Below, piece after piece: positions 6,977-34,652 of a stretch of DNA of 34,652 nucleotides. Both the position numbers and the translations under genes were made by a program. The first letter of the stretch is position 1. The number at the start of each line of letters is the position of its first letter. Origin of the DNA: a virus; IMG/VR virus record IMGVR_UViG_3300022745_000108, positions 1 to 34,652 of that record; one strand, written 5' to 3'. Under the pieces are notes generated by a model. That model had not been told where the DNA came from. It was given only the letters and a program-made list of their open reading frames with translations, and did no database searches.

Positions 6977-7004
6977 ATTATACGCATTTTTTTCGCAAAA
7001 GCAA
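6977..7004 (-). promoter_or_regulatory. Sigma70-type promoter of the moron gene
   Basis: On the minus strand, TTGCTT (7004-6999), a 16-base spacer and a perfect TATAAT (6982-6977) stand 39 bases before the moron ATG. The consensus -10 and an independent ribosome binding site suggest expression without phage factors, for example in a prophage or carrier state. Confidence 0.65.
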
Positions 7005-7047
7005 TACTTTTGCGCTATTTTTTCGCAAATTATTTTTAGGGATAAAT

Positions 7048-7076
7048 TTGACAACGCCAGCAAAATGCTTTACAAA
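7048..7076 (+). promoter_or_regulatory. Sigma70-type promoter before the protease-scaffold gene
   Basis: TTGACA (7048-7053, consensus), a 17-base spacer and TACAAA (7071-7076), followed by an AGGGGG ribosome binding site and ATG 7099. It would restart head-gene transcription after the inserted minus-strand moron. Confidence 0.55.
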
Positions 7077-7098
7077 GCAAAAATCTAAAGGGGGCGGC

Positions 7099-8376
7099 AT
7101 GAAAGTTTTCGCACAACTCACCAAAGTGGACGAAGAGCAGCGGCTGATTTTCGCCCGCGCAGCGCAGGAAACGCCTGACCGTTCCGGCGAAATTCTCGAC
7201 TACGAAACCAGCAAGCCGTTGTTCCAGAAATGGAGCAACGAGCAAGCGGAGGCCAGCGGCGGCAAATCCTACGGCAATCTGCGCGCGATGCACGGCAGCG
7301 GGGTTGCTGGCATCTTGGCAGAGCCTATCATTTTCGACGATGCCGAACGCGCGCTGGATGTGGTGGTAAAGGTGGTTGACGATGCCGACTGGAAGAAGGT
7401 TCTCGCCGGAGCCTACACCGGCCTGAGCATTGGGGGGAGCTATGCAAAACGCTGGAAAGATGGCGACCTTACCAGATACACCGCCGCCCCGGCTGAAATC
7501 TCGCTGGTGGATCGTCCGTGTATTCCCACGGCAAAATTCTTCGACGTTCGCAAGGCGGACGGGTCTTTGTCTAAAATGGAGTTTGCAAACATGACCGAAA
7601 ACGCAGCAGAAGTGCAGGTAAAGGGCGAGGCATCGGACGTTGAGCGTTTGGGCGAACTGCTCAATAAAAACGCGCTATCGGTTGCCGATGCAATCGAACG
7701 GCTGGAAAAGTCGCTTGCCGATGCGGAGCCTGCCGAAGAATTGAAAAAATCCCTGTTCGACGTTGCGAAACTGGCAGAAATTGTGCAGGCCATTAAGTAC
7801 ATGGCGGATAAAGCGGCATACGAAGCCAACCAAGAGCCGGATGACTCCGGCATTGCTGACCGCCTGCAATCGCTGGCCGCTGATGCCGCAATCCTGCTGC
7901 AAGACTTGGCCGCGCATGAGGCCGCTGAGATTGTGGGCGGCGAAGATGAAGCGCAGCCCGATGGTGAGGTGCTGGCTATGTCCGTCAAGTTGGCAGGGCT
8001 GGCAAAGGCCGGGGCGCGCAATAGCGCGGCAGACGCAAAGACCATCCAAGAATTGCACGACCTCGCAAACAAGCTAGGCGCAGCTTGCGCTGCTGGCAAT
8101 GTCGGAAAAACAGACGAAGCGGAGGAATTGCAGAAGGCCGACGCGCTAACTAAGGCAATCGACGATGCGACCGCACCGTTGAAAAAGCGCATCGCAGAAC
8201 TTGAGGCGCAGCCGCAGACCGCAGATATTGCGCTGCTGGCAGTGGATAAGGGCGCGGATGCTGTGCAAGTGCAGAAAACTGAGATCGCCCCGGTAATTGG
8301 CATCACCGGGGAAATCAGCGAAACGGCAACACTGATTAAAGCGGCGCGGGCGAAAAACCTGCAAATCATCAACTAA
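7099..8376 (+). CDS. Prohead protease fused to scaffold
   Basis: 425 residues from ATG 7099, with AGGGGG 6 bases before it; the longer ORF from 6970 crosses promoter DNA. Residues 1-150 look like a phage prohead serine protease: 'AMHGS' (His65) and 'GAYTGLSIGGSYAKRW' (Ser110/114), then 'PAEISLVDRPCIP' (131-143), a signature of the XkdF/Mu I-like proteases. Residues about 165-425 are long, acidic, Ala/Glu-rich and helical, typical of an internal scaffold. The protein would guide capsid assembly and then cleave itself out before DNA packaging. The major capsid gene follows at once. Confidence 0.85.
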   Translation: MKVFAQLTKVDEEQRLIFARAAQETPDRSGEILDYETSKPLFQKWSNEQAEASGGKSYGNLRAMHGSGVAGILAEPIIFDDAERALDVVVKVVDDADWKKVLAGAYTGLSIGGSYAKRWKDGDLTRYTAAPAEISLVDRPCIPTAKFFDVRKADGSLSKMEFANMTENAAEVQVKGEASDVERLGELLNKNALSVADAIERLEKSLADAEPAEELKKSLFDVAKLAEIVQAIKYMADKAAYEANQEPDDSGIADRLQSLAADAAILLQDLAAHEAAEIVGGEDEAQPDGEVLAMSVKLAGLAKAGARNSAADAKTIQELHDLANKLGAACAAGNVGKTDEAEELQKADALTKAIDDATAPLKKRIAELEAQPQTADIALLAVDKGADAVQVQKTEIAPVIGITGEISETATLIKAARAKNLQIIN

Positions 8377-11941: not shown

Positions 11942-12697
11942 ATGGCACAGCAATTATTCGGCAGCGGCGCGATTTACGCAACGCCACTCGTTGACGCGGC
12001 AGGCAACACCATCACCAATCCGACACCGGTTAAATTCTTGGCTTGCCAAGACATTTCGATTGATATTTCTTTCGACACCAAGATGCTGCACGGTAGCAAC
12101 CAGATGCCGCTTTCTGTTGCGCGCGGCAAGGGCAAGATTGCGGTTAAGGCAAAGTATGGTCAAGTCAATGGCGCGCATTTCAATAATGCGTTTTTCGGCC
12201 AAACGCTGTCCACCGGGCGCGACCAATATGTGCAGGACAATACCGGCTCGGTCATCCCGGCCACGCCTTTCACCGTTACGCCTGTCGTTCCGGGCGCGGG
12301 GACTTGGAACGCTGATATGGGCGTTCGCAACGCGCAGGGCGCACCGCTGACCCGCGTTGCATCCGCACCAGCATCCGGTCAATACTCGGTGGCCGCTGGC
12401 GTGTACACCTTCGCGGCTGCTGATACCGGCCAGACCGTTTACATCGACTACCGCTATACCGTCACAACCGGTCAAAAGATCGTCGTCGGCAATCAGCTTC
12501 TGGGTAGCACTCCGATGGTTGCGCTGGATATTGTTATCCCATACGCTGGAAAGTCGCTGACGTGGAAGTTCCCGCAGGCGGTATCTGGCAAGATGGCGAT
12601 GGCGACCAAGCTGGACGACTTCACCATCCCGGAAATTGATTTTGACGTATTCGCGGACGTGAGCAACAACGTCGGCACAGTCGGGATTAGCGAATAA
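11942..12697 (+). CDS. Major tail tube protein
   Basis: 251 residues, preceded by AAAGGGC. The protein is rich in beta strands, Gly, Thr and Val; 'MLHGSNQMPLSVARGKGKIAVKAKYGQVNG' is typical of tail tube subunits. A middle segment (about residues 95-175) looks like an inserted beta module. The next gene is the tail assembly chaperone, as in lambda (V then G/T). Its start follows a short gap after the terminator gene. Confidence 0.82.
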   Translation: MAQQLFGSGAIYATPLVDAAGNTITNPTPVKFLACQDISIDISFDTKMLHGSNQMPLSVARGKGKIAVKAKYGQVNGAHFNNAFFGQTLSTGRDQYVQDNTGSVIPATPFTVTPVVPGAGTWNADMGVRNAQGAPLTRVASAPASGQYSVAAGVYTFAAADTGQTVYIDYRYTVTTGQKIVVGNQLLGSTPMVALDIVIPYAGKSLTWKFPQAVSGKMAMATKLDDFTIPEIDFDVFADVSNNVGTVGISE

Positions 12698-13219: not shown

Positions 13220-15334
13220 ATGGCTGATGATGTAAATGTAAAATTCGGGGCAGACATTGCGGAGCTTGAATCCAAAATGTCCGCCGCGCATGTTGCCGTT
13301 TCTGGCGCAACCACCAAGATGACGGATGCAATCAAGAGCTTCGGAGTAGCAATGGCCGGAGCTTTGACCGTTGGCGCGTTCCAGCACGCGATTAACGGCA
13401 GCCTTGAAATGCAGGATAGCTTGTCTAAGCTATCGGTCAAGACCGGCGTGACCGTTGAAAATCTGGCAGGCTTGAAACTGGTGGCTGAAATGTCTGGCGT
13501 ATCGCTGGAGGGGGCGGCGACCGGAATGAAGTTACTGGCTAAAAATATGTCCGAGAATGCGGATATGTTCGCAAAGCTGGGCGTGTCAGCCAAAGACCCG
13601 CAAGAAGTCATGATTCAACTTGCTGACAAATTCGTTGGCATCAAAGACCCGGCAGACCGCACCGCGCTGGCGATGAAACTGTTTGGCCGCGCAGGTGTTG
13701 AAATGTTGCCGATGCTCATGTCCGGCAGTGTAGCCATGCGGGGGCAGATTGCAGCCGGGACTGAATTGTCCGGCGTGACCACGCAGAGCGCGAAAGCAGC
13801 GGAGGCGTTTAACGACAAGCTGAGTCTGATGCACGCGCGAACTCAGGGCATGGTTAACACCGTCACCGGGGCGATGCTGCCCGCCCTGAACGGCATCGCT
13901 GACGCATTTGCAAACGACAAGAAAAACGGCGAGGCGCTGAATGCCGTTGCCGCTTTTTTGTCTGGCACCTTGCGGACGCTGGCATCTATTGGGCTGATCG
14001 TGCGCGATGTGTTTCTGGGTGTTGGCGATACAATCGGGGCGGTAGCGGCGGCGGCAGTGGCGGCGGCTTCTGGCGAGTTTTCGCAGGCCGGGCAAATACT
14101 CGACGAAATGTCGGCCAAGACCAAAGCGCGGGGCGAGAATCTACGGGCAACGCTGAAAACGCTTTGGACTGACATACCGCAATCAATCGGAGACACAATT
14201 CCTTTGAAAGAAACTGACCTGCGCGGGGTGCTGGACAAGGGGAATAAAAAAAGCGGAAATGCCAAAGCCGCCAAAGATGAAAGCCAGATGCCGCAATATG
14301 AGGCGGCGCTTGACCTAAAGCGCATCGAAATGATCGAGCAGCAGCACCGTGAATTGTCCAAAGCCGAGGAAAAGGCTTACTGGGATGCGGTGCTGCTGAC
14401 GGTGAAGGCTGGATCGAAAGATTATGATGCTGTCCTGAAAAAATCGCGCGGCGACCGGCTGGCGGATGCGCGCGAAAAGCTCAAAGAAGAGCAGGCGCTT
14501 GAAGAAGAGCGAAACAAACGAGAACAGGCCATTGCGAATGATGCACTGGCTACCCATGCCGCAAATATCAAACAGCGCCGCGCGATGGGTGAGATCGACG
14601 CGATGCAGGAAATTGAGGCAACGCGCCAGCTTGAGCAGGCCAAGTATGCGGTGCAGATGCAATACGCGCAAGCAAAGCTGGCAAAGCAGCGCGAAGGAAC
14701 TGTAGAGTATGCCAAGGCCGCCGAAGAGATTGCGGTAATCGACCGGCAGCACAATGCAGCGATGGTGGCCGCTGACAATGCCGCCGCGCTGGAGTCGCGC
14801 AAGGCATGGATGGATATGGTGCAGCCAATCTCAAATGCAATCGAGACAAGCGTTAAAGGGGTGATTCAGGGGACGCAAAGCATCAAGCAAGCCTTTGCAA
14901 ATCTGGCGCAGAATATCGCCCTGAGCATCACCAGCATGATTATTAAAACCAACATCGAACTGGCTGCGTCTAAGCTGTTCCAGCTTGGTGGCGGCGGGGC
15001 TGCTGGTGGCGCATCATCTGGCGGGCTGGGCGGTATGCTGACGGCTGGGCTTGGCGCGATATTCGGCGGCGGCGGGCTGTTTAGCTCGGCTGGCGGCGAA
15101 TGGAATGTGCCGCAAGACCGGCTGAATCTTGTCCACAAAAATGAGACAATCTTGCCCGCAAGCATGGCGGAAAAATTCCGCGACATGGTAAGCAATGGCG
15201 GCGGCGGGCGTAGTACATCCATGCAGACGGTCAACAACTTCAGCCTTTCCGGTAATGTTGACCGCGCAACGCAAGACCAGATCGCTATGCTGGCATCCGG
15301 CGCGATGGCGCAATCTATGCGGAGGAATGGATAA
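13220..15334 (+). CDS. Tape measure protein
   Basis: 704 residues, the longest intact single-frame gene of the window outside the megaprotein. An N-terminal coiled region ('DIAELESKMSAAHVAVSGATTKM') is followed by hydrophobic helices, 'KLSVKTGVTVENLAGLKLVAEMSGVSLEGA' and 'ADKFVGIKDPADRTALAMKLFGRAGVEML', which are lambda H-type tape measure motifs. A long charged coiled coil spans about 350-540, and a Gly-rich C-terminus follows. Length would set a tail of very roughly 105 nm (about 0.15 nm per residue). It starts 2 bases after the frameshifted chaperone stop. Confidence 0.9.
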   Translation: MADDVNVKFGADIAELESKMSAAHVAVSGATTKMTDAIKSFGVAMAGALTVGAFQHAINGSLEMQDSLSKLSVKTGVTVENLAGLKLVAEMSGVSLEGAATGMKLLAKNMSENADMFAKLGVSAKDPQEVMIQLADKFVGIKDPADRTALAMKLFGRAGVEMLPMLMSGSVAMRGQIAAGTELSGVTTQSAKAAEAFNDKLSLMHARTQGMVNTVTGAMLPALNGIADAFANDKKNGEALNAVAAFLSGTLRTLASIGLIVRDVFLGVGDTIGAVAAAAVAAASGEFSQAGQILDEMSAKTKARGENLRATLKTLWTDIPQSIGDTIPLKETDLRGVLDKGNKKSGNAKAAKDESQMPQYEAALDLKRIEMIEQQHRELSKAEEKAYWDAVLLTVKAGSKDYDAVLKKSRGDRLADAREKLKEEQALEEERNKREQAIANDALATHAANIKQRRAMGEIDAMQEIEATRQLEQAKYAVQMQYAQAKLAKQREGTVEYAKAAEEIAVIDRQHNAAMVAADNAAALESRKAWMDMVQPISNAIETSVKGVIQGTQSIKQAFANLAQNIALSITSMIIKTNIELAASKLFQLGGGGAAGGASSGGLGGMLTAGLGAIFGGGGLFSSAGGEWNVPQDRLNLVHKNETILPASMAEKFRDMVSNGGGGRSTSMQTVNNFSLSGNVDRATQDQIAMLASGAMAQSMRRNG

Positions 15335-24723: not shown

Positions 24724-25234
24724 AAACATCCTGCCGTGGATCGGCGCAGCGGCGACCGGCAACGTCCCGGCGTTGGTTACTATGGCCGCCAGTGCCGTCA
24801 GCAGCAGCTTGGGCGTGCCGGTCAAGGCGGATACCGGCGCAATTACCGCCGCAGTCAGCAACGCCACGCCGGAGCAGATCGCCGCGCTGAAACAGGCTGA
24901 GGCTGACTTTGCGCTGAAAATGCAGGCGCTTGGCTTCGGGCATGTCGAGGAGCTGGAAAAAATCGCCGCAGGCGACCGCGCCGATGCCCGCGACCGGGAG
25001 GTTAAGACTGGCGACCACCTGATGCCGCGCGTCTTGGCCGCGTTCGCCGTCGCCTGCTTCGTCGGGCTGGTCTATTCGGTGCTGGTTGGCATGACCCCGG
25101 CGGACGGGATGAAGGACACCTTCTTAATCCTGATCGGTGCGGCCATTGCGGTTTTCAAGGATGTGTACGGATACTACTTCGGCAGCAGCGCCGGAAGCCG
25201 CGCGAAAGATGCGGCTATAGCTGATCGCCCTTAA
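24707..25234 (+). CDS. Holin (GTA 3-TM holin-like)
   Basis: 175 residues. The N-terminal half has Ala-rich helices and a charged coiled part ('EQIAALKQAEADFALKMQ', 'ADARDREVKTGDHLMPR'). Two or three transmembrane helices follow, ending with 'LILIGAAIAVFKDVYGYYFGSSAGSR', the mark of the GTA_holin_3TM family. It would make the inner-membrane hole for the lysozyme. It is the last plus-strand late gene; its stop codon overlaps the stop of the converging minus gene. Confidence 0.82.
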   Translation: MPDFLKNILPWIGAAATGNVPALVTMAASAVSSSLGVPVKADTGAITAAVSNATPEQIAALKQAEADFALKMQALGFGHVEELEKIAAGDRADARDREVKTGDHLMPRVLAAFAVACFVGLVYSVLVGMTPADGMKDTFLILIGAAIAVFKDVYGYYFGSSAGSRAKDAAIADRP

Positions 25235-25596
25235 TCAACAGGACGCAACCAGCACCCGGCGGCAGTTTTTACCCACCCGGCAGCTATTCGCCCTTCGTCA
25301 ATCAATTCGCACATTCTGCCGTACATATTGCGCGGCGATTCCTCATACATTGCGGAAAGTTCATCCCATGCCGCAACCATTGGCGACCAAATAGGGTAGG
25401 CTTCTGCAACCTCTGGCAATCGCACGCGCCACTCCGGGAATAACTGTAGAAGACGGTAGCATCTGCCGAAGTCGCTGGAATCGCGCGGAACGTCAATTCC
25501 GAACGAATCGGTTTTTTTACTTCCGGTCATTACGGCAAGAATCGTTTTACTGCTGATTCCAGTGTCGCCGCTTAATAGCCATTCAATCGGGGTCAT
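25231..25596 (-). CDS. Conserved hypothetical phage protein ('MTPIEWLLSGDTGISSKT' type)
   Basis: 121 residues from ATG 25596 with AAGGA upstream; longer starts cross the leader ORF. I recognise the opening 'MTPIEWLLSGDTGISSKTI' and the 'DSSDFGRCYRLLQLFPEWR' middle as a widespread small protein of proteobacterial prophages, without known function. Its ATG overlaps the stop of a 14-codon leader ORF (ATGA), pointing to coupled translation. The 3' end meets the holin gene tail to tail with a four-base overlap and no clear terminator between. Confidence 0.8.
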   Translation of the reverse strand: MTPIEWLLSGDTGISSKTILAVMTGSKKTDSFGIDVPRDSSDFGRCYRLLQLFPEWRVRLPEVAEAYPIWSPMVAAWDELSAMYEESPRNMYGRMCELIDEGRIAAGWVKTAAGCWLRPVD

Positions 25597-25637
25597 GCGA
25601 AATATCCTTTTTTCAACAGCTTTCGTTTGGATTTCAT
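25593..25637 (-). CDS. 14-codon leader ORF coupled to the next gene
   Basis: ATG 25637 has its own AGGAG (bases CAGGAGCCACACG before it), reads MKSKRKLLKKGYFA and stops at TGA 25595-25593, overlapping the next ATG. The peptide is very basic. It may only bring ribosomes to the downstream start. Confidence 0.5.
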   Translation of the reverse strand: MKSKRKLLKKGYFA

Positions 25638-25693
25638 CGTGTGGCTCCTGTTGGTGGTGTTTTTTCTGGTTTTTAGGGGGTGTTTCAAATTTT

Positions 25694-25858
25694 TTAGGGG
25701 TGATACTTTGCGTTAGCCGCCAGTATCGCGCCGAGCCTAAGGATGAAAACTTCCTGTGCTTCTGGCGCTCCCCATTCCACAATCCCAAGCCCAGACTCCA
25801 GCCTTGTAAATTCGATCAGCAGCGGTGCATCCATGCCATGCAGTCCGGCTTTTTTCAT
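25694..25858 (-). CDS. Small hypothetical protein
   Basis: 54 residues from ATG 25858; a GTG directly before it is also possible. The protein has a globular pattern: 'LHGMDAPLLIEFTRLESGLGIVEWGAPEAQEVFILRLGAIL'. An overlapping frame (stop at 25737) also reads open from about 25908, but its product is rich in Cys, Arg and Trp and looks unnatural, so I prefer this frame. No family recognised. Expressed with the leftward small-gene operon. Confidence 0.55.
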   Translation of the reverse strand: MKKAGLHGMDAPLLIEFTRLESGLGIVEWGAPEAQEVFILRLGAILAANAKYHP

Positions 25859-25903
25859 CACCGTCGCCCCGGCAACGATGTCGTTGCAGTTTATGTTTAG
25901 TCA

Positions 25904-26089
25904 TCATTGCGCCTTGCCCGTAGCGATGCACCGAAACTTGGCTGGCTGAACACCCAATTCCGTAGCCGCCTGCTTGCAATGCTCGATAGACTGAAATTCA
26001 CCGATTGGCCTCCAGTCAAACTCCTTGTAGGTAACAAACTGCGTCCCCGCGTACCCAACTATCGTCCAAATCACAAGGATCGTTTTCAT
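25904..26089 (-). CDS. Small membrane-anchored or exported hypothetical protein
   Basis: 61 residues from ATG 26089, preceded by a G-rich run (GGGGTGTGGGG). Residues 1-20 ('MKTILVIWTIVGYAGTQFVT') look like an uncleaved signal anchor. The rest is a small soluble part ('FQSIEHCKQAATELG...FRCIATG') with two cysteines that could be disulfide-bonded in the periplasm. It overlaps the upstream gene by four bases. No family known to me; an envelope role such as exclusion would fit but is speculation. Confidence 0.65.
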   Translation of the reverse strand: MKTILVIWTIVGYAGTQFVTYKEFDWRPIGEFQSIEHCKQAATELGVQPAKFRCIATGKAQ

Positions 26090-26511
26090 CCCCACACCCC
26101 TAGCGTAATCACCCGCGCGGGCTGGCATAGGGCGGGGGGCGGAACGTGCCAAGGCCGTATGGCTTGCAGGGCGTTTTCCAGCGCATCGTAAGGGGACTGC
26201 ACAGCATCCATTCTGCTTTTCGCAATCTTGATTTGCGTAACGTCAAGCCCGCAGCCTTTGACGTTACGATAGCTGAAATAGGGATTCAGCCGATAAACCG
26301 TAATGCGCCGCCCGGCAGCGATAACGCTACCGCATTCAATCAGCGCGTCAATTTTATAAAGGCTGCGTAGCGTTTTAGCAGTGTGCCGTTCGCGCCTCGT
26401 GGGGTTGTGCAACTCGCAAAAATGGTCAAGTTTTGGATTGCGGGCGGTGAACTCTTGTGCAGGTATATTTTCCAGCAGCCAGTCGTAAATGATTCTCGGA
26501 GTCGTTTTCAT
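26086..26511 (-). CDS. Hypothetical protein with winged-helix-like N-terminal part
   Basis: 141 residues from ATG 26511. Residues 1-75 ('IIYDWLLENIP', 'RRERHTAKTLRSLYKIDALIECG', 'GRRITVYRLN') have the helix-helix-wing pattern of a small winged-helix domain, suggesting DNA binding. The C-terminal half has no motif. The start overlaps the stop of the upstream 50-residue gene (ATGA), so they are coupled. The regulatory role is inference. Confidence 0.65.
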   Translation of the reverse strand: MKTTPRIIYDWLLENIPAQEFTARNPKLDHFCELHNPTRRERHTAKTLRSLYKIDALIECGSVIAAGRRITVYRLNPYFSYRNVKGCGLDVTQIKIAKSRMDAVQSPYDALENALQAIRPWHVPPPALCQPARVITLGVWG

Positions 26512-26660
26512 GCCGCACCCACTTCCGCAATGTACCGTTGCCAAGTTTTCCGCACATCCGTAGCCGCCGCGCTTGTCGGGGAGAATTGGAACTCCAAAAT
26601 GTACATTTTTCTTGCCCGCAGATAGGCCAGAGCGTTTTCGAGTTTTTCAGCGTGTGTCAT
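26508..26660 (-). CDS. 50-residue hypothetical protein
   Basis: ATG 26660 with GAGGATGACG upstream; stop TGA overlaps the next start by four bases. The protein is helical: 'AEKLENALAYLRARKMYILEFQFSPTSAAATDVRKTWQRY'. Coding is supported by the ribosome binding site, the tight ATGA overlap and the even composition. I have no function for it. Confidence 0.65.
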   Translation of the reverse strand: MTHAEKLENALAYLRARKMYILEFQFSPTSAAATDVRKTWQRYIAEVGAA

Positions 26661-26670
26661 TTCGTCATCC

Positions 26671-26826
26671 TCAGTAAAAAATCACAACCAAACAGGCAAT
26701 CGCGCAAACAACCGGGAAAGCAACCGACAAGCGCCAATCAGAGGCCAGCAGAATTTCGCGCTCTTCCATTTCGCGCCGGGCGCGCGCGCTGGCGTTAATT
26801 GCCCGCACAAGCTCAGAATTTTCCAT
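26671..26826 (-). CDS. 51-residue C-tail-anchored membrane protein
   Basis: ATG 26826 behind a strong GGAGG; stop TGA 26673-26671. Residues 1-30 are charged and helical, residues about 33-51 ('LSVAFPVVCAIACLVVIFY') form one membrane helix. It overlaps the upstream gene by 14 bases. Small tail-anchored proteins in phage early operons often affect the host membrane or other phages, but nothing here tells which. Confidence 0.65.
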   Translation of the reverse strand: MENSELVRAINASARARREMEEREILLASDWRLSVAFPVVCAIACLVVIFY

Positions 26827-27118
26827 TTTTGATTTCCTCCAAAATCAGCGCATCGACAGCCATACGCACTCGCGCCATTGCCGCGAGTACCGCATCAATA
26901 GCAGCTTGTTCTCCGTTCACAGCCGCGCCCACCTCACTCAATGCGCGCCGAAAATGTCGCATGTTGTCGCGCAACCATCCATGATCGTCATCCAAATCCA
27001 GAAGATGAAACTCATCCGAGTTATAAACGGCCTCCTCAACATCCGAAACCGATACTTGATTGGCAAGATGCTGCTCTAGTCTTTCCTGAAAATCTGCTGT
27101 GTCGTTTGGATTGTTCAT
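26813..27118 (-). CDS. Acidic hypothetical protein, first gene of the second leftward operon
   Basis: 101 residues from ATG 27118. The ribosome binding site and the first codons (ATGAACAA) lie in the 108-bp repeat and are identical to those of the gene at 32632. The protein is acidic and helical, with 'SDEFHLLDLDDDHGWLRDNMRHFRRALSEVG'. Strong acidity and small size are compatible with a DNA mimic or inhibitor, but this is only a possibility. It leads the operon running to 25231. Confidence 0.75.
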   Translation of the reverse strand: MNNPNDTADFQERLEQHLANQVSVSDVEEAVYNSDEFHLLDLDDDHGWLRDNMRHFRRALSEVGAAVNGEQAAIDAVLAAMARVRMAVDALILEEIKNGKF

Positions 27119-27218
27119 TTTTCATTCCTTTGTTTGCAGGTTCGGCTTAATTGCCTAGCTGGTGAAGCGCATTATATGCGCATTAAAAAATTATGCAAGC
27201 ATTTTTTTAATTGTTTTT
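27111..27218 (-). repeat. 108-bp perfect direct repeat carrying promoter, operator and RBS (copy A)
   Basis: Base for base the same as 32625-32732. It includes the start codon of the gene at 27118, its ribosome binding site, a palindrome (27167-27181) and the promoter. The outer 47 bases (27172-27218) also code the last residues and stop codon of the VRR-NUC gene. Confidence 0.95.
27171..27198 (-). promoter_or_regulatory. Sigma70-type promoter and operator of the small-gene operon
   Basis: On the minus strand TTGCAT (27198-27193), 16 bases, then TATAAT (27176-27171). The palindrome GCGCAT-TAT-ATGCGC (27167-27181) covers the -10, ideal for repression. The same arrangement is at 32681-32712. 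Confidence 0.75.
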
Positions 27219-27615
27219 TTGCATTTTCAGCACCTCGCGCAATCTCTACCTGATACCCGGCAGCGCGCAGCGCCTCAGCCATTTCGCGCTGTTCCGGCGA
27301 TACCACGCCCCCACTTTCGCGCTTCATTTCAATAAACAGCCTCATGGCCGGGATGAATAGGTCTGGTATGCCTTTCGTCACGCCTTCCGCCTTCAAGTTC
27401 ATCGCTTCGACCGGGTGACGGCTTCCTCCGTTTGGGATTGCGAAAATCAAAACGCCCGGATATTCGCGCCGGAACCATGCGACGAACTCAACCTGCTCCG
27501 CGTGTTCATTGCGGCACGTCGTTTGCTTTTTCTTCGGCTGCTCTGGCTGCTTCGTCCGGCGTGGCGAAGAATCCCAAGGTGCGAAGTTGTCCGTTTTCCC
27601 GCCAGCAGATGCCAT
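27172..27615 (-). CDS. VRR-NUC domain nuclease
   Basis: 147 residues from ATG 27615, chosen because AGGGGA stands eight bases before it; a TTG at 27705 is the longer alternative. The PD-(D/E)XK core of VRR-NUC enzymes is visible: Glu39 ('NEHAEQVEFVAWFRR'), 'IPNGG' (60-64), Asp85 ('GIPDLFIP'), Glu96 and Lys98 ('LFIEMKRE'). These are stand-alone, structure-specific nucleases in phages (Holliday or flap type). The N-terminus overlaps the preceding small gene in another frame. The last 14-15 residues and stop are encoded by the duplicated promoter. Confidence 0.82.
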   Translation of the reverse strand: MASAGGKTDNFAPWDSSPRRTKQPEQPKKKQTTCRNEHAEQVEFVAWFRREYPGVLIFAIPNGGSRHPVEAMNLKAEGVTKGIPDLFIPAMRLFIEMKRESGGVVSPEQREMAEALRAAGYQVEIARGAENAKKQLKKCLHNFLMRI

Positions 27616-27715
27616 AAGCCGGTTCCCCTTTGCTGTAAAAAATCGGCATCGTAAAATTGCCGCATTTCGTGATGTAGTGCCACTGGTTGCCTTCGATCCA
27701 TTCAAGTTTTTTCAT
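27506..27715 (-). CDS. 69-residue hypothetical protein between helicase and nuclease
   Basis: ATG 27715 overlaps the helicase stop by 14 bases. The protein has an even beta-rich composition ('WHYITKCGNFTMPIFYSKGEPAYGICWRENGQLRTLGFFATPDEAARAAEE') that looks like a real small domain, reminiscent of AP2-like or integrase-arm-like three-strand folds. The long overlap with the nuclease frame means one of the two starts could be misplaced. Function unknown; it may be a helicase or nuclease partner. Confidence 0.7.
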   Translation of the reverse strand: MKKLEWIEGNQWHYITKCGNFTMPIFYSKGEPAYGICWRENGQLRTLGFFATPDEAARAAEEKANDVPQ

Positions 27716-29309
27716 GGTATTCCCGGCGTACCACTTCGTAAAATTTTGAATTCGCCTGATGCTTTACCAAAATTCGCGCAGGCATTCTGGCAATGATATA
27801 TTGCGCGTCGATTTCGGCGGCGGTGGCGTAACCTTCCGGCCTGTAATAGTCAGGCGGCATAAATTGCCGCATCGCATCGGCGGCTTTTTTCGCCGCAAAT
27901 CCGCCATGCTCAGGGCAGAGAAACTCGCAAACCACATCGCCAAGCATCCCGCCGATATAGTACGACACCCGCACGCTGTCAGGCTTGCCGGGCTTTCGGT
28001 GTATTGACCACCGCCAATCGGCAACTTCGCGCCAGATAGCTTCCTCGGCTTGGCGCTTGAGTATCGCGCCCGCGTATGATTGTGCGTCATGACTAATCTC
28101 TGGGTCAGGAAACGGCGCTCCGCACTCTTGGCAATGGCGGCACCCTGCCTGGCAGATTGTGTCGCAATTTTTGCAGACCTTCACCGGGGCATTCCCGCCG
28201 CCTTTGCCAGGCAGCTTTATAATCGGGTCGTCAACAAAGCCTAATCGTTCGACATTGCCGCCGTAATCGAGGAAAAGGCAATCCTTTTTGCCCGGATAAA
28301 GCCGCTGGCCGCGTCCGGCAATCTGGACGTAAAGCGCTGCGCTGCAAGTGGCGCGCATCATGGCTATCAGGGCGCAGATCGGGGCATTGAATCCTATTGT
28401 CAGCACATCGCAATTCACAAGGCACTTGATATTCCCGGCCTTGAAGTCTGCGATAATTGCCGCGCGCAGGTCTTTCGGCGTTTCGCCGGTGATGACTTCG
28501 CAAACCACGCCGCGCGCAGCGAATTCGGCAGCAATGTCCTCGGCGTGCTGCACGCCGGACGCAAATACCATCCATGCGCGCCGGTCTGCGCCAAGTTCGA
28601 TCACTTCCGACACCGCCGCCGCGATTAGCTCAGACTGATCGAATGCGCGTTCCATTTCTCCAGCGATAAATTCACCGCCGCGCATTTTCACGCCTGACAA
28701 ATCCGCCCGGCCAGCCGCCGCCCCGCGCTTGCTCACAAGTGGCAGCAAGTGGCCTTCGTCTATTAAAAACTGCACACCAATCTCATGCGCCACAGGTAGG
28801 TCAAGCATCCCTGTATCCAGCCGGTAAGGGGTGGCTGTCAGGTGTAAAAATCTTGCGTTCGGGTTGAGTTGCGTGATTGCCTTGATGACCTTGGCATATT
28901 GCGCGTTGCTGTTTTTCGTTCCGGCCAAGTGCGCCTCGTCAATGATGACAACCTGCCACGGCTCGAAGTCGTAAATTTGCCGCGCGATGCTGGCAATTCC
29001 GGCAAAGGTAACGCGCCGATGCTTTTCTTTTTTGCCTAAGCTGGCGCTGAAAAATCCAATATCAGCGCCGGGTAGAATGGCGCGCAGTTCGCCGCCATTC
29101 TGTTGCAGCAATTCCGCCCGGTGCGTCAGCACCAAGACCCGCACGCCGTCCCACTCAAGCGCCCGCCGGATTGTTTCCGCGATGATTAGGGATTTCCCTG
29201 CCCCGCATGGGGCGACCACAAGCGCATCACGTTCACCAGCATCCCCCCACAGGCGGAAAGTTTCATCGACGGCTTTTAGCTGATATGGCCGCAGTTCAAT
29301 TTTCGCCAT
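27702..29309 (-). CDS. Superfamily 2 DNA helicase with zinc finger
   Basis: 535 residues from ATG 29309. 'LRPYQLKAVDE' Q-like motif, Walker A APCGAGKS (33-40), DEAH box 'VVIIDEAH' (120-127) and motif III 'HLTATPYRLD' (157-166), then the RecA-2 part with 'VLTIGFNAP' and 'QIAGRGQRLYPGK' (motif VI). A four-Cys zinc knuckle 'CKNCDTICQAGCRHCQECG' follows. This is a RadD/ResIII-like helicase as found with phage recombination genes. It overlaps the nuclease gene upstream by 14 bases. It would unwind or remodel DNA during replication and recombination. Confidence 0.92.
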   Translation of the reverse strand: MAKIELRPYQLKAVDETFRLWGDAGERDALVVAPCGAGKSLIIAETIRRALEWDGVRVLVLTHRAELLQQNGGELRAILPGADIGFFSASLGKKEKHRRVTFAGIASIARQIYDFEPWQVVIIDEAHLAGTKNSNAQYAKVIKAITQLNPNARFLHLTATPYRLDTGMLDLPVAHEIGVQFLIDEGHLLPLVSKRGAAAGRADLSGVKMRGGEFIAGEMERAFDQSELIAAAVSEVIELGADRRAWMVFASGVQHAEDIAAEFAARGVVCEVITGETPKDLRAAIIADFKAGNIKCLVNCDVLTIGFNAPICALIAMMRATCSAALYVQIAGRGQRLYPGKKDCLFLDYGGNVERLGFVDDPIIKLPGKGGGNAPVKVCKNCDTICQAGCRHCQECGAPFPDPEISHDAQSYAGAILKRQAEEAIWREVADWRWSIHRKPGKPDSVRVSYYIGGMLGDVVCEFLCPEHGGFAAKKAADAMRQFMPPDYYRPEGYATAAEIDAQYIIARMPARILVKHQANSKFYEVVRREYHEKT

Positions 29310-30141
29310 CGTCGATCCAGCCATTCTGATATTGCACCCACGCGCCGGACTCGCAAGCATCCTCAACCGCGCCAATCAGCGGCGGCAGGTACCGATGCGC
29401 GCCGCATCCCCATTTTTGTTCGAGGAAGGTAATTGCGCCCTTGCCGTTGTCGCATGTCCAGCCGCCAGCAGGTTGAGGCGTTGAGCAATAGCAGGTTCGG
29501 CAGTTGCGCTCCGGTCGTTCTGCGCCGTGGCAGATGCCGGAAAACGGACACATACGGCAAACGTAAAAAGCCGGGTCGCTGCTGAGTTTTTCGGGTGGCA
29601 CCGGCGCGAAAATGATTGCTTTTGCCTTTGCGAATAGCGATTCGGCAAGTTCCGGGTCGGCATCAACCGGCAGCGTAGTCACCGCGTCGGTATCCTTGCA
29701 GATTGCCAGATAAATGCCTCGCGCCTTGCCTACCGCGTGGATATAAACCACAAGCTGCGCCAGATGCCGCGCCGGGATGCCCTCGCGTTCGAGTTTGGCA
29801 AACGATTTCGCGTTATGGGTTTTGACCTCCAGAACCGCATCACCGATGATGCCATCCACTGACCCGGAAAAATGCCCGCCGAATGCCGCGAATCCGTCTT
29901 GCTGCCCACCAACGTCAATCCCGGCTGCGCGCAGTTCGTCGATTATCCGCTGTTCGGAAAGTTTCCCGGTCTGGAAAATCCGCAGGATGCGCCCTTCGTG
30001 CGTGACGTTTTTCGCCCACCGGAATGCGTACCAGATATGCCGCGCGCAGGCATGACCGATTAGGCTTGCGCCAAGGTGCGGGCGGCGCGAATCCTCTTGA
30101 TTGCTTTCAAGGTGTTGATATAATTGCTTTGCGATGTTCAT
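29296..30141 (-). CDS. Cas4/RecB-like PD-(D/E)XK exonuclease with Fe-S cysteines
   Basis: 281 residues from ATG 30141 with GGAGT upstream. The nuclease core shows 'GSVDGIIGDAVLEVKTHN' (Asp96, Glu105, Lys107) and 'QLVVY' (Gln129...Tyr133). Cys32 together with C195-x2-C198-x5-C204 has the spacing of the 4Fe-4S cluster in Cas4 and AddB nucleases. A further group, C214, C217, C219 and C230, lies after it and may bind another metal. Next to a Sak4-like recombinase and helicase it would make single-stranded ends for annealing. Confidence 0.87.
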   Translation of the reverse strand: MNIAKQLYQHLESNQEDSRRPHLGASLIGHACARHIWYAFRWAKNVTHEGRILRIFQTGKLSEQRIIDELRAAGIDVGGQQDGFAAFGGHFSGSVDGIIGDAVLEVKTHNAKSFAKLEREGIPARHLAQLVVYIHAVGKARGIYLAICKDTDAVTTLPVDADPELAESLFAKAKAIIFAPVPPEKLSSDPAFYVCRMCPFSGICHGAERPERNCRTCYCSTPQPAGGWTCDNGKGAITFLEQKWGCGAHRYLPPLIGAVEDACESGAWVQYQNGWIDDGEN

Positions 30142-30162
30142 TTCGTTGACTCCTTCCTCTTT

Positions 30163-30188
30163 GCCCGGCTTGCGCCGGGCGTTTTTTT
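30163..30188 (+). terminator. Strong Rho-independent terminator facing against the operon
   Basis: GCCCGGC (30163-30169), loop TTGC, GCCGGGC (30174-30180), then GTTTTTTT on the plus strand. All genes here are on the minus strand, where the hairpin has no T-run. It would stop antisense transcription or protect an mRNA end between the DUF669 and nuclease genes. Confidence 0.75.
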
Positions 30189-30190
30189 GA

Positions 30191-30691
30191 CTATTTCGGC
30201 TTGCGTTCCCACGGTTTCGCTGGCGCTGCTGCTGGCGCGGCAGGCTTCGCCGGGGCGGATTCGGCTACGTCTGCGCCATAGGGCAAGAAGTCTGCCACCT
30301 CGTTTTTCGCATCATAGCCATTCTGTGGCGGAACGATTTTCAGCTTAATCACAAGCGGCTTGTCCAAAAATTCGCTGGATGCTTTCGGTTGCATCACGCC
30401 CACCGCCCGGCAGAAAGCCGAAAGCTGACGTTTTCCAATCTCTTCGGCCTTTGCGCTCTGGTTTCGGATGTTCAGATTCGCAAAAACCATCCTCCCGTCA
30501 TATTCGCCGCCCTCCTGAAAAATCTCAAACTTGAGCGATAGGCGTTTGCCGCTTCCTGTTTTGGCATCCAAAACCTCGGCCTCCCGCACAACTGCCGGAT
30601 ACTTGCCGGGCGGCATCGGGTCAAAGCTGCTGGATGGATCAACCTGTTCTGCGTCAAAATCAAATTCTTCAAAATCGTTGAAACTGCTCAT
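30191..30691 (-). CDS. DUF669-type ssDNA-binding / recombination accessory protein
   Basis: 166 residues. 'PPGKYPAVVREAEVLDAKTGSGKRLSLKFEIFQEGGEYDGRMVFANLNIRNQSAKAEEIGKRQLSAFCRAVG' is the DUF669 pattern, an OB-fold-like family that goes with Sak/Sak4 annealing systems. The N-terminus is acidic and the C-terminus is an Ala/Pro-rich tail ending with Lys, as in ssDNA-binding proteins. The ribosome binding site lies in a 24-base sequence shared with the pentapeptide gene upstream. It would coat ssDNA for the recombinase. Confidence 0.85.
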   Translation of the reverse strand: MSSFNDFEEFDFDAEQVDPSSSFDPMPPGKYPAVVREAEVLDAKTGSGKRLSLKFEIFQEGGEYDGRMVFANLNIRNQSAKAEEIGKRQLSAFCRAVGVMQPKASSEFLDKPLVIKLKIVPPQNGYDAKNEVADFLPYGADVAESAPAKPAAPAAAPAKPWERKPK

Positions 30692-30712
30692 TTTTAATGC
30701 TCCTTTTCGTTG
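30689..30712 (-). repeat. 24-bp RBS/start cassette, copy at the DUF669 gene
   Basis: It matches 31313-31336 except for one base (30696). It spans the start codon and AAGGAGCAT ribosome binding site. The two copies flank the pentapeptide gene. Confidence 0.8.
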
Positions 30713-30721
30713 TGAAAATTA

Positions 30722-31315
30722 TTAAAATTTGGCACCGGTCAGATCGGCACCGGTCAGATCGGCACTGGTCAGATCGGCACTGGTCAGATTGGAAAAGGCC
30801 AGCTTGGAAAAGGCCAGCTTGGCACCGGTCAGCTTGGAAAAGGCCAGATTGGCACCGGCCAGATCGGCACCGGTCAGATCGGCACCGGTCAGATCGGCAT
30901 CGGTCAGATTGGCACCGGTCAGATTTGCACCGGCCAGATTTGCACCGGTCAGATTTGCACCGGTCAGATTGGCACCGGTCAGATCGGCATCGGCCAGATC
31001 GGCACCGGTCAGATCGGCACCGGTCAGATCGGCATCGGTCAGCTTGGAAAAGGCCAGATTTGCACCGGCCAGATTTGCACCGGTCAGATCGGCACCGGTC
31101 AGATCGGCATCGGTCAGCTTGGAAAAGGCCAGCTTGGAAAAGGCCAGATTTGCACCGGTCAGATTTGCACCGGTCAGATCGGCACCGGTCAGCTTGGCAT
31201 CGGTCAGATCGGCATCTTCCTCAGCCGCCTTTTCTATCGTTTTTTTAATTGTATTTTCGTCGCAATCGTGCGCGAACAGTACTTCACCTTTGAGATTTTT
31301 GATTTCAATTTTCAT
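30722..31315 (-). CDS. Pentapeptide-repeat protein
   Basis: 197 residues. After a 34-residue header ('MKIEIKNLKGEVLFAHDCDE...') come 32 pentapeptides of the A(D/N)LTG type in unbroken register, enough for eight coils of a right-handed beta-helix. Some repeats are AFSKL-like, placing Phe inside and Lys outside at several coils. The protein is very acidic otherwise. The DNA is nearly pure 15-bp repeat, which means recent expansion. Such helices can mimic DNA (Qnr, MfpA act on gyrase), but no target loop is visible. It sits between the Sak4-like and DUF669 genes, with copied 24-base leaders on both sides. Confidence 0.9.
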   Translation of the reverse strand: MKIEIKNLKGEVLFAHDCDENTIKKTIEKAAEEDADLTDAKLTGADLTGANLTGANLAFSKLAFSKLTDADLTGADLTGANLAGANLAFSKLTDADLTGADLTGADLADADLTGANLTGANLTGANLAGANLTGANLTDADLTGADLTGADLAGANLAFSKLTGAKLAFSKLAFSNLTSADLTSADLTGADLTGAKF

Positions 31316-31336
31316 TTTTCATGCTCCTTTTCGTTG
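31313..31336 (-). repeat. 24-bp RBS/start cassette, copy at the pentapeptide gene
   Basis: Same as 30689-30712 apart from one base. It suggests the pentapeptide gene arrived by an event that copied the leader, or through recombination at it. Confidence 0.8.
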
Positions 31337-31337
31337 G

Positions 31338-32081
31338 TTAAATCAAATTTGCAAAAACATTCCAGCCGCCGACTTTAGGCATCGGAATTTGAGGCGGCAA
31401 ACTGTAGCGGTTTTTTGCCAAAAATGCGGGCGTTTCGCTGGTGTAAATCACCGGCTCTGGCGATCCAATTATTCCGCGCCGGTGGTCTTTCTCAAATCCT
31501 TCGCCCTCGGTTTTCAGCACTCTCGTTTTGTAGTTTGCGAAAAAAACCGCATCCGCCCATTCCTGCACAACCGCACTAGACCGGCTCTGCAATTTCGGCT
31601 GGTAGCGGTCATAGGGGTCTGTTTCTGGCGACTCAAACCTCCGAATTTCAGTGTGCGCCGTGATGATTACTGCCATGTTGCGCGACAGCCGCAACTCGTT
31701 AAGCCCGGCCAATACATCGCGCCAAGCGTCCGCCAGCAACAGCGCTCCTTTCCCGTATGCCAATTCGCTGGCGCTGTGCTTTTTCTCGATTTCGGCCATC
31801 ATTACCGACTCAAGCCAGTCAGCAGAATCAAGCACCACCGTTTCAAAGTCATGGCCATCACTCAGCAGCGTGCCGATTGCCTCAAAAACATGCTGGCTGC
31901 TTGTCGCCAGCGGGAACGCTGCTGTATCAATAGAGCCTAGCCCGTCTTCGGTGCAGATGAATACCGGGTTTGGCGCGGATGCCGCCCATGTGCTTTTTCC
32001 GATGCCGTGGGTGGCGTAAATCATAATGCGGGGGGCTTTGATTGCCTTTCCCTTCGTGATGCTTTTCAAGTCAAAAGCCAT
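31338..32081 (-). CDS. Sak4-like RecA-fold ATPase (phage nucleotide-binding, AAA_24)
   Basis: 247 residues. Walker A 'ATHGIGKST' (23-31), Walker B 'FETVVLDSADW' (79-89) and 'MAVIITAHTEIRRFE' are the marks of the AAA_24/TIGR01618 family to which Sak4 recombinases belong. With the DUF669 protein and Cas4-like nuclease downstream it forms a typical phage single-strand annealing/recombination set. It would load on ssDNA and promote annealing or strand exchange. Starts at ATG 32081, five bases after the preceding gene. Confidence 0.87.
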   Translation of the reverse strand: MAFDLKSITKGKAIKAPRIMIYATHGIGKSTWAASAPNPVFICTEDGLGSIDTAAFPLATSSQHVFEAIGTLLSDGHDFETVVLDSADWLESVMMAEIEKKHSASELAYGKGALLLADAWRDVLAGLNELRLSRNMAVIITAHTEIRRFESPETDPYDRYQPKLQSRSSAVVQEWADAVFFANYKTRVLKTEGEGFEKDHRRGIIGSPEPVIYTSETPAFLAKNRYSLPPQIPMPKVGGWNVFANLI

Positions 32082-32085
32082 TTTT

Positions 32086-32454
32086 TTAATCCTCCAGTTT
32101 TTTTACGGAAACGCTAGGCTTGCCCGGTGTTGCAATCATACATGCGGAAAATTTCAGGTAGTCAATCGGGTGATTTTCGCGCAGGCTTCGCATTTTGCCC
32201 ATGTCAATTTCCGGGCGGTACTTGACCGGAACCATTCCGGGCGGCAAGTCAAGCTCCTGCAATTTTTCAGGGTCAATCGTGCGGTTGATGCGCCCGGTGA
32301 TGGTCACTTTATAGCCGTCGAGCTTGTGCGTTTTCGCGCCATCGTCGCGCATCCATAGTTGCGATACAAGGCCAGATTCAGCCTCAGCCAGCGCGCATCG
32401 TGCCAAGTTGTAAGCCTCGCGCGCCGCGAGGTATTTTTCAAGCGCGGCGCTCAT
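32086..32454 (-). CDS. Hypothetical early protein of the recombination operon
   Basis: 122 residues from ATG 32454 with GGAGC upstream; longer starts overlap the previous gene. The N-terminal 45 residues are a helix pair ('ALEKYLAAREAYNLARCALAEAESGLVSQL'); then a basic beta part ('HKLDGYKVTITGRINRTIDPEKLQELDLPPGMVPVKYRPEI') and a final helix. The pattern is one I associate with proteins next to Sak4 and SSB genes, without a known role. The stop lies five bases from the ATPase start. Confidence 0.75.
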   Translation of the reverse strand: MSAALEKYLAAREAYNLARCALAEAESGLVSQLWMRDDGAKTHKLDGYKVTITGRINRTIDPEKLQELDLPPGMVPVKYRPEIDMGKMRSLRENHPIDYLKFSACMIATPGKPSVSVKKLED

Positions 32455-32455
32455 T

Positions 32456-32632
32456 TTATGCTGCTCCAGTTGTGTTTGCAGCGTCCCACACATTGCAGCA
32501 CAGTTTCAAGTATGCGCTTTCGCCCATTACCGCATCATACCCGGCGCGGACACTTCCGCCGTTTGCGTTGATTGCGTTAACGATGCGCTGATAAATTGCA
32601 GCCATTTCAGCATGAAATTGTTGGTTGTTCAT
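32456..32632 (-). CDS. 58-residue protein, first gene of the recombination operon
   Basis: ATG 32632 and its ribosome binding site AAAGGAATG lie in the 108-bp repeat. The protein reads 'MNNQQFHAEMAAIYQRIVNAINANGG' and is helical; it has two adjacent cysteines near the C-terminus. The stop is one base from the next ATG. It is not similar to the protein that follows the other repeat copy beyond the first three residues, so only the control region was copied. Function unknown. Confidence 0.7.
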   Translation of the reverse strand: MNNQQFHAEMAAIYQRIVNAINANGGSVRAGYDAVMGESAYLKLCCNVWDAANTTGAA

Positions 32633-32732
32633 TTTTCATTCCTTTGTTTGCAGGTTCGGCTTAATTGCCTAGCTGGTGAAGCGCATTATATGCGCATTAA
32701 AAAATTATGCAAGCATTTTTTTAATTGTTTTT
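32625..32732 (-). repeat. 108-bp perfect direct repeat carrying promoter, operator and RBS (copy B)
   Basis: Identical to 27111-27218. Here it lies in the divergent gap between the leftward recombination operon and the rightward HTH/primase genes, so it is probably the original copy. Confidence 0.95.
32685..32712 (-). promoter_or_regulatory. Sigma70-type promoter and operator of the recombination operon
   Basis: TTGCAT (32712-32707), 16-base spacer and TATAAT (32690-32685) on the minus strand, with the palindrome 32681-32695 over the -10. It would drive genes from 32632 down to 27172. Confidence 0.75.
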
Positions 32733-32733
32733 A

Positions 32734-32742
32734 TGCTAAGAT
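32734..32742 (+). promoter_or_regulatory. Possible rightward extended -10 promoter
   Basis: TGCTAAGAT is an extended -10 form, 43 bases before the HTH start and just outside the 108-bp repeat. No good -35 is seen. It would be the rightward partner of the leftward promoter at 32685-32712. Confidence 0.4.
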
Positions 32743-32785: not shown

Positions 32786-32977
32786 ATGCAAACGGAAAAA
32801 ATTGAGTACATCGTGCAAAAACTGACAGAAAGCAAAGGCGCGGCAAAGCGCATCGCTTCGGGCGCTGGCGTGCCATATCATGCCGTTTCTGCGCTTTACG
32901 CCATCCTCGATGAGGAGGCAATCGAGAAGGTTTATGACTATATCAAGCGCGCAGAAGCCGCCCGGATGGTGCTGTAA
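32786..32977 (+). CDS. Small HTH regulator before the primase-helicase
   Basis: 63 residues from ATG 32786; GAAAGGG six bases upstream favours this start over ATG 32771. The protein shows helix-turn-helix-like spacing: 'IVQKLTESKGAAKRIASGAGVPYHAVSALYAI'. It faces the leftward promoter copy B across the divergent gap, so it may control early transcription or be an activator of replication. Its last base is the first base of the primase start codon. Confidence 0.7.
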   Translation: MQTEKIEYIVQKLTESKGAAKRIASGAGVPYHAVSALYAILDEEAIEKVYDYIKRAEAARMVL

Positions 32978-34652
32978 TGATTCGCCACGCTTTGCGCTAC
33001 GCGGCTATAGGGTGGGCTGTTTTCCCGTTGCATACTTTCATCCGTGGCCGCTGCTCTTGCGGTAAGGCCGATTGCAATGCACCGGCGAAACATCCAATTG
33101 CCGCGCTTGTGCCTCGCGGGAGGAATGACGCGACCACCGACCCTGAGAAAATCAAAAGCTGGTGGAAGCGGCACCCGGAGGCGAATATCGGCATCGCAAC
33201 CGGGCGCGAGTCCGGCATCTTGGTGGTGGATATTGACGACAACGGCGCGATTCCGCTTGGCGCTTTGCCTGACACCATCGAGCAGATAACCGGCGGCGGT
33301 GGTCGGCATGTAGTGTATCGCAGGCCAGAGGGCGGGCGGTATATCAGCAACACCACCACGGCGGGGATCGTGGGCGTGGACAGTCGGGCAGATGGTGGGT
33401 ATATCGTGGCCGCGCCATCGCTGCACAGATCCGGCAGGCGGTACGAGTGGGAAGCCAGCGGCGACCCATTCGACGGCGGGGAAATTGCTGACGCGCCCGA
33501 ATGGTGGTTGGATGCGATTCGGGCAGAAGATGCGCCGCTGTTTTCTGCTCAGGCTGCGCCAGCTTGGAATCCTACCGGCGAGCTGCCGGACAATCTTGAG
33601 GCGATGCTGCGAACCATCCCGGCGCACGATTACGCAACATGGCGCGATGTTGGCCTTGCATTGCACCATGCCGCGCCAGTTGACGGGCTGGACTGGTGGG
33701 ACTGGTGGAGCGCGACCGCCAGCAATTACGATGCAGCATCCATCCGCCGCGAGTGGGCGAACTTCACCCGCCGGGCGCATCTGGTTGCGCGACCCGTCAC
33801 AATCGACACCGTGCGCCGTCTGGCCGACGAAAACGGCTATGCAGACGAACGGCTAGGGATTGGCGAGGAAATCGCCGGGATGCTGATTGACTCCGAGCAG
33901 GAAAAGCAGGCAGAGATCGTGCGCGAGGCGGCGCAGGCCATGCCGCACGAAAGCATCGCCATGCCTGAAATCATGCCCGCGCGCGGGCTGATACGCGATG
34001 TTGCCGAATACATCACCCGCACATCAATCTGGCCGCAACCTGAATTGGCCGTTGCAAACGCGCTGACTTTCATCGGCGCGATTGCCGGGCGAAAATTCCG
34101 CACCCAATACGGCGGCATGTCCAACATTTACACCATCGGGCTTTTGGATTCTGGCGGCGGGAAAGACCACAGCCGAAAAGAAATCAACAAGCTGGCGGTG
34201 CTGGCATCGTGCGGGGAATACATCGGCGGGGAAAACTTCGCCAGCGGGCAGGCGCTAATCAAGGCGATGGAGCGCAACCCGGCGCAGCTTTTCCAGATCG
34301 ACGAAATAGGCAAATTCATCGCATCGGCAACAAGCGGCAAGGCCAGCGACCACAAGGCGGACATTATTACGCGCCTGATGGTGCTGTATTCGGCGGCGGG
34401 AGGGGTCTATCAGGGGACGGAGTACGCAGATCAAAAAACCAATCCGCGAACGGTGATTTTCAACCCGTGCGCTTGCCTGTATGGGACGGCCACGCCGTCG
34501 AGCTTCTGGGGTGGGCTGACCTCTGGCGAGTCAATCGACGGCTTTCTGAGCCGCCTGCTTATAATCGAGCCGCAGCATTATCGCCAGAACAAGCAGCGCC
34601 CGGACTTGCGCGCGCCTGAGCCTTGGCTGATTGAGCAAATTCGCGCCATTGC
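32977..34652 (+). CDS. Prim-Pol / PriCT / DUF3987 replication primase-helicase, N-terminal part (continues at base 1)
   Basis: The frame is open from ATG 32977 to the window end and continues at bases 1-551 (about 737 residues in all). Residues 1-165 are a bifunctional primase-polymerase domain: zinc-type cysteines 'CSCGKADC', acidic DxD in 'LVVDIDDNG' (Asp85, Asp87), 'TGGGGRHVVYR' (His111) and 'GVDSRADGGYIVAAPSLH'. Residues about 205-265 fit PriCT_2 ('ATWRDVGLALHHAAP'). From about 330 a DUF3987 helicase begins, with a P-loop in 'LLDSGGGKDHS' (390-399) and Walker B 'LFQIDEIG' (438-445). It would prime and unwind at the origin beside its 3' end. Confidence 0.93.
   Translation, partial: MIRHALRYAAIGWAVFPLHTFIRGRCSCGKADCNAPAKHPIAALVPRGRNDATTDPEKIKSWWKRHPEANIGIATGRESGILVVDIDDNGAIPLGALPDTIEQITGGGGRHVVYRRPEGGRYISNTTTAGIVGVDSRADGGYIVAAPSLHRSGRRYEWEASGDPFDGGEIADAPEWWLDAIRAEDAPLFSAQAAPAWNPTGELPDNLEAMLRTIPAHDYATWRDVGLALHHAAPVDGLDWWDWWSATASNYDAASIRREWANFTRRAHLVARPVTIDTVRRLADENGYADERLGIGEEIAGMLIDSEQEKQAEIVREAAQAMPHESIAMPEIMPARGLIRDVAEYITRTSIWPQPELAVANALTFIGAIAGRKFRTQYGGMSNIYTIGLLDSGGGKDHSRKEINKLAVLASCGEYIGGENFASGQALIKAMERNPAQLFQIDEIGKFIASATSGKASDHKADIITRLMVLYSAAGGVYQGTEYADQKTNPRTVIFNPCACLYGTATPSSFWGGLTSGESIDGFLSRLLIIEPQHYRQNKQRPDLRAPEPWLIEQIRAI
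34640..34652. repeat. Terminal 13-bp overlap (right copy) of a circular genome
   Basis: Identical to bases 1-13. Counting it once gives a circle of 34,639 bp. The position lies inside a coding sequence, so it is not a natural cos or pac end that can be recognised from sequence. Confidence 0.85.

Follow-up and report, generated by a model that had tools for sequence, protein, structure and literature searches.

In T4-type phages, promoter early stem-loops (PeSLs; Arbiol 2010, Comeau 2014) are promoter and stem-loop elements repeated before genes (PMC4503421; PMC3950731). As these citing papers describe them, PeSLs are repeated cassettes lying between small early genes, with the promoter paired with a stem-loop (terminator) and the copies numerous, and they are able to mediate shuffling. 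HGTV-1, an archaeal virus, carries a TATA-box and inverted-repeat motif repeated before many of its ORFs (PMC3950731), and in mycobacteriophages of Cluster K a 13-bp repeat (SAS/ESAS) occurs in 11-19 copies, for which a translational role has been proposed (PMC3203893). The Roseobacter phage CRP-901 has five copies of a start-region sequence, made up of TTGTAATCTGTGACA-NN-TGTCA, a TATA-like element and AGAGAGAGAGGA and ending at start codons; four of the five lie beyond its VRR-NUC gene. In the CRP-901 paper (PMC10149686) we found neither promoters nor intergenic repeats mentioned.

Here we describe a 108-bp cassette that occurs twice in the early region of a small, uncultured tailed phage, within a virus record of 34,652 bases that was analysed whole and is called the window below. 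Compared with PeSLs as those papers portray them, the cassette is longer, is present in two exactly matching copies, has no terminator, includes a ribosome-binding site (RBS) and start codon, and overlies the 3′-end of a coding sequence; on terminator and copy number it is not a PeSL in that sense, though it works similarly. It shares with the HGTV-1 motif a promoter-like element and an inverted repeat ahead of ORFs, but precedes two genes rather than most ORFs of one genome half. The Cluster K repeats are likewise associated with start sites and in some cases preceded by inverted repeats, but they are short and numerous, and no promoter has been shown for them. CRP-901 is syntenic with the phage described here; its copies differ in being roughly 50 bp long, degenerate, of other sequence and not derived from its own divergent promoter.

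Results

The cassette forms a direct repeat that is identical at 108/108 bases, and a search of the whole record found exactly two copies (Table 1). The exact match is maximal, reaches 112 nt if one mismatch is allowed, and ends in flanks that are unrelated on either side, with 0-5 of 10 bases matching per block; chance origin is excluded. GC content is 32% in the cassette and 56% in the genome. An earlier note on this DNA had reported the 108 identical bases, including the start codon region, at the head of two leftward operons, and both points hold at both copies. Its claim that a control unit was copied without a gene is supported for the control unit, but the unit is not free of coding sequence: both downstream genes take their first two codons from the cassette, and the VRR-NUC gene takes its last 15 codons and stop from copy 1. 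Recent copying or gene conversion, as the note had proposed, fits the 0/108 differences but is not datable, because no close relative of the region was found. The note had also anticipated that recombination between the copies would delete the recombination operon, and the segment at stake is indeed that operon plus one cassette copy, 5,514 bp in all.

On the minus strand, each copy consists, in order, of an A-rich block, TTGCAT, 16 bp, TATAAT, a leader, AAAGGA and ATGAACAA, and a GCGCAT-ATA-ATGCGC dyad spans the -10, in agreement with the GCGCAT/ATGCGC palindrome noted earlier. The TTGCAT-16-TATAAT sequence proposed previously as a promoter is present in both copies; set against an early promoter of the sigma-70 type, TATAAT is exact, but TTGCAT fits the -35 consensus at 3/6 positions only. 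This -35 is below the threshold of an automatic consensus promoter scan, and the cassette promoter is absent from the resulting list. Within the cassette no terminator was predicted. At copy 2, the cassette ends at 32732, just short of the predicted -10 of the rightward operon, and because of this boundary copy 1 would correspond to a PL without a PR. We conclude that the 108-bp unit is probably regulatory in function and that the two early-gene blocks are probably run by one switch design.

Copy 2 lies where a small HTH-primase operon and the leftward recombination operon diverge. Copy 1 heads a 101-aa gene, after which six more small genes extend to 25231. A gene for a pentapeptide-type repeat protein sits inside the recombination operon, with the Sak4 and DUF669 genes on either side. 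Neither the 101-aa gene nor the primase fragment nor the HTH protein encoded at 1173 (HTH 1173) gave a viral relative when searched. The first and last 13 bases of the window are identical (1-13 and 34640-34652), and joining them over these 13 nt extends the primase, in frame, to 736 aa; because of these two features a complete, circular genome of 34,639 bp is probable, though the record is classed as linear. No Rfam families or tRNA genes were found in the record. Between the primase and HTH 1173 lies a perfect 24-bp inverted repeat (676-699 and 744-767, 44 bp apart), beside which TTTTCGCA motifs occur at 563, 640, 652 and 692 and, on the minus strand, at 751; the repeat and motifs are possible candidates for an origin or for regulator sites. 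A second TTTTCGCA cluster, at 6978-7106 (6990, 7020 and 7106), is found near a gene start.

Table 1. Features of the two cassette copies and their surroundings in the window, with the CRP-901 start-region copies used for comparison
Feature	Position	Strand	Remarks
Cassette copy 1	27111-27218	-	Exact repeat; AT-rich upstream block, -35, -10, dyad, leader, RBS, ATG AAC AA; overlaps 3′-end of VRR-NUC, heads distal leftward genes
Cassette copy 2	32625-32732	-	Exact repeat; divergent region, HTH-primase operon / recombination operon; position conserved in relatives
Predicted promoter, copy 1	27171-27198	-	From sequence; TTGCAT (27193-27198), 16 bp, TATAAT (27171-27176); -35 3/6, under scanner threshold
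Predicted promoter, copy 2	32685-32712	-	From sequence; TTGCAT (32707-32712), 16 bp, TATAAT (32685-32690)
Putative operator, copy 1	27167-27181		GCGCAT-ATA-ATGCGC over -10; exact to GCGCAY-N3-RTGCGC
Putative operator, copy 2	32681-32695		GCGCAT-ATA-ATGCGC over -10; exact to GCGCAY-N3-RTGCGC
Predicted extended -10 of rightward HTH-primase operon	32737-32742	+	TGC-TAAGAT; by eye
XRE/HTH_3 protein (HTH 1173)	1173-1364	+	63 aa; Aca2/YdiL-like below cut-off; R-R-x-x-Q recognition pattern
Distal leftward genes	25231-26826	-	26671-26826, 26508-26660, 26086-26511, 25904-26089, 25694-25861, 25231-25596 (phrog_1229)
101-aa gene (MNNPND...)	26813-27118	-	First after copy 1; no clear family
VRR-NUC nuclease	27172-27513	-	Frame open to 27705, start not fixed; final 15 codons plus stop within copy 1
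Small gene between helicase and VRR-NUC	27506-27715	-	69 aa; weak HNH match (E 0.009)
ResIII/DEAD helicase	27702-29312	-	
Cas4-domain/PD-(D/E)XK exonuclease	29296-30141	-	
DUF669 / ssDNA-binding-like protein	30191-30691	-	
Pentapeptide-type repeat protein	30722-31315	-	A(D/N)LTG units; 15-nt DNA repeat
Sak4-like single-strand annealing ATPase	31338-32081	-	AAA_24
phrog_2480 gene	32086-32493	-	Unknown function
58-aa gene (MNNQQ...)	32456-32632	-	First after copy 2; no family match
Small HTH protein	32786-32977	+	63 aa; weak match to phrog_9425 (repressor); divergent from copy 2
Prim-Pol/DUF3987 primase	32980-34652	+	Runs on into 1-551 after joining at the 13-nt ends; 736 aa
CRP-901 start-region copies (stretch compared)	12017-12038, 12647-12668, 13266-13287, 14279-14300		
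CRP-901 start-region copy (stretch compared)	1577-1598	-	

The gene order around copy 2 is shared with other phages. A small HTH gene and primase divergent from a run of Sak4, helicase and VRR-NUC genes recur in six named phages (Idiomarinaceae phage 1N2-2, Alteromonas phages PB15 and XX1924, Roseobacter phage CRP-901 and two Manatee Spring phages), and the phage described here fits this module, with DUF669 and Cas4-type exonuclease genes in its own leftward run. Copy 2 takes the same position as the PL/PR-type early control regions, with their Cro/XRE regulator, of 1N2-2 and others. When full divergent regions were compared with the stretches of 1N2-2, PB15, XX1924 and CRP-901, no second copy of a phage's own divergent region was found, giving one copy each in the four relatives in which the number of copies, a point raised in the earlier note, was checked; in the two Manatee Spring phages the divergent regions were compared in part, and no second copy was seen there. 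Operator-like sequences in 1N2-2 and the others compared are different from those of this phage. The leftward run is uninterrupted in relatives and broken by copy 1 here, and genes beyond VRR-NUC vary among relatives. The shared synteny and single-copy relatives thus support the assembly order and favour an ancestral position for copy 2. Outside this phage, the cassette had no match in phages or plasmids, it was absent from the other Sak4 loci inspected, and viral contigs probed with two different 21-22-mers of the cassette gave no match. The bare 15-mer palindrome occurs in 22 viral contigs that showed no shared cassette sequence, and these were put down to chance. Among long repeats in capsid-related contigs, the two inspected closely resemble degenerate portal/capsid coding copies and not control cassettes, and a relative by major capsid protein (MCP) shares the structural genes but not the early region.

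The dyad over the predicted -10 gave a lead to its possible ligand. The sole exact 21-mer match in 257 Gb of prokaryote genomes (genome_contigs) lies in Nisaea nitritireducens, immediately upstream of an 81-aa XRE gene, where we estimate about 0.1 chance matches to be expected. Upstream of this gene and its homologues, in genomes of the same class, the motif GCGCAY-N3-RTGCGC is found at 12/22 genes (at most two mismatches, within 170 bp), compared with a mean of 1.2 and a maximum of 5 in shuffles, a contrast that is somewhat flattering as the consensus was derived from the same upstream regions before counting. The motif is conserved upstream of small XRE regulator genes in the class of Nisaea (L126 2954-2974 and the L142-L162 upstream regions) and is likely an autoregulatory operator of that XRE family. 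Both phage copies match it with 0 mismatches in the same 6-3-6 arrangement at the predicted promoter (27167 and 32681). In shuffles of the cassette, any 6-bp dyad arose in 41%, and one with at least four G/C per arm in 3%, which makes the dyad no more than modestly unusual within this phage. Because the 21-mer match adjoins an XRE gene and the motif precedes 12 of the 22 family genes, the -10 palindrome is probably an XRE-type operator, and the earlier suggestion of a candidate operator here gains support from a cross-species motif. GCGCAY-N3-RTGCGC is not enriched across the phage genome.

As to the repressor, HTH 1173 aligns to the Nisaea XRE family with R-R-x-x-Q at the recognition helix, and the protein encoded at 32786 does not. 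The R-R-x-x-Q pattern is widespread in XRE proteins. BLASTP of HTH 1173 against the Nisaea XRE protein returned no similarity, and the best motif site at the promoter of HTH 1173 itself, over its -10, has three mismatches. The HTH gene nearest to an exact operator site is 32786, not 1173; a structure search with the 32786 protein gave weak XRE-like matches only, none at E ≤ 0.001. We favour HTH 1173 over 32786 as the candidate repressor and regard the assignment as a lead.

Discussion

The direction of copying bears on how the second cassette arose. The 15-codon VRR-NUC tail within copy 1 has a GC content of 20%, matched by 0/7,108 15-codon windows of the phage's genes, and it contains one ATA and two rare TTA codons, TTA making up 3.6% of the phage's leucine codons; the C-termini of the other genes are at 38-71% GC. 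Because the tail is foreign in composition and the divergent region is conserved in relatives, copy 2 is the better-supported source and copy 1 the product, a direction that is favoured though not proven. The tail could also be native, since its length, 15 residues past the last aligned alanine, matches relatives: VRR-NUC of 1N2-2, CRP-901 and MW202867 ends 14-16 residues past the same alanine, with a similar helix pattern (KKQLKKCL here). A promoter that had always overlapped the VRR-NUC 3′-end, with copy 2 made from it and bearing a remnant of the tail, nevertheless seems unlikely given a GC content unlike that of every coding window, the rare codons, the conservation in relatives of the divergent control region, and a cassette boundary just short of the predicted PR -10. 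We judge equally unlikely a modular exchange by a PeSL-type route, in which related phages bearing the cassette recombined by homologous crossover, so that either the recombination module or the block of the MNN1 gene was brought in with a cassette left at each end. Such a route has been described for T4-like phages (PMC4503421; PMC3950731), both genes here begin exactly at the cassette edge (ATG AAC AA), and the distal genes differ between relatives; the recombination module, in contrast, keeps its place across six syntenic phages and looks native, and no other phage with this cassette was found.

Two further readings question the cassette itself. The repeat may be kept not as a promoter but as a recombination substrate, a packaging or replication site or an RNA element; its 108 bp are sufficient homology for annealing-type recombination in a phage that encodes Sak4, and the leader is identical in both copies yet has no evident function. 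We consider this quite improbable, as each copy has its TATAAT, RBS and ATG in the orientation and at the spacing suited to starting a gene, and the RNA folding of the cassette is ordinary (z -1.26) with no match in Rfam. Least probable of all, in our estimation, is that one copy, or a join through the repeat, is an assembly error. The phage is known here from the assembled sequence of a single metagenomic record, and the repeat is longer than many assembly k-mers; against this, the two copies show four distinct flanks, relatives place the 5.5-kb inter-copy segment in the same location, a circle with two direct repeats allows only one single-molecule path, and the record does close as a circle with the primase in frame.

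On balance, we lean towards a model in which the leftward early promoter unit was copied from the divergent region to the position of copy 1, with both copies under the control of one XRE repressor. What the sequence shows directly is the exact repeat, the synteny, a VRR-NUC tail of foreign composition, the motif family and the recognition pattern shared with it; promoter activity, the identity of the repressor and the copying route are inferred. The PL of this phage would have been copied from the copy 2 site as one unit, including operator, leader, ribosome site and start codon, landing 5.5 kb downstream and replacing the 3′-end of VRR-NUC, so that the distal small genes of that leftward run gained an additional start point. 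At GCGCAT-ATA-ATGCGC, both -10 elements would be covered by a single small XRE repressor, for which the 1173 protein is the likeliest candidate, and RNA polymerase would be blocked. Upon relief of repression both operons would fire together, with copy 1 restoring full-strength transcription and translation midway down the run. Loss of the 5,514 bp by recombination between the copies would take Sak4 and the nucleases, and selection would oppose it.

It is conceivable, if doubtful, that small HTH-primase/Sak4 phages expand their early regulons in general by inserting whole repressor-controlled units, from promoter to start codon, further downstream, even on top of the 3′-end of the preceding gene, such that control logic spreads as mobile noncoding DNA without any gene attached, with CRP-901 as a separate case. 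For an uncharacterized phage module, the analysis names a testable candidate operator and a candidate repressor. Because the copies differ at no base, they also offer a natural paired test of one switch in two contexts, a divergent promoter and the 3′-end of a gene. In this compact phage, a complete promoter-operator-start unit would have been reused within one operon run, an instance of regulatory DNA that may spread without genes.
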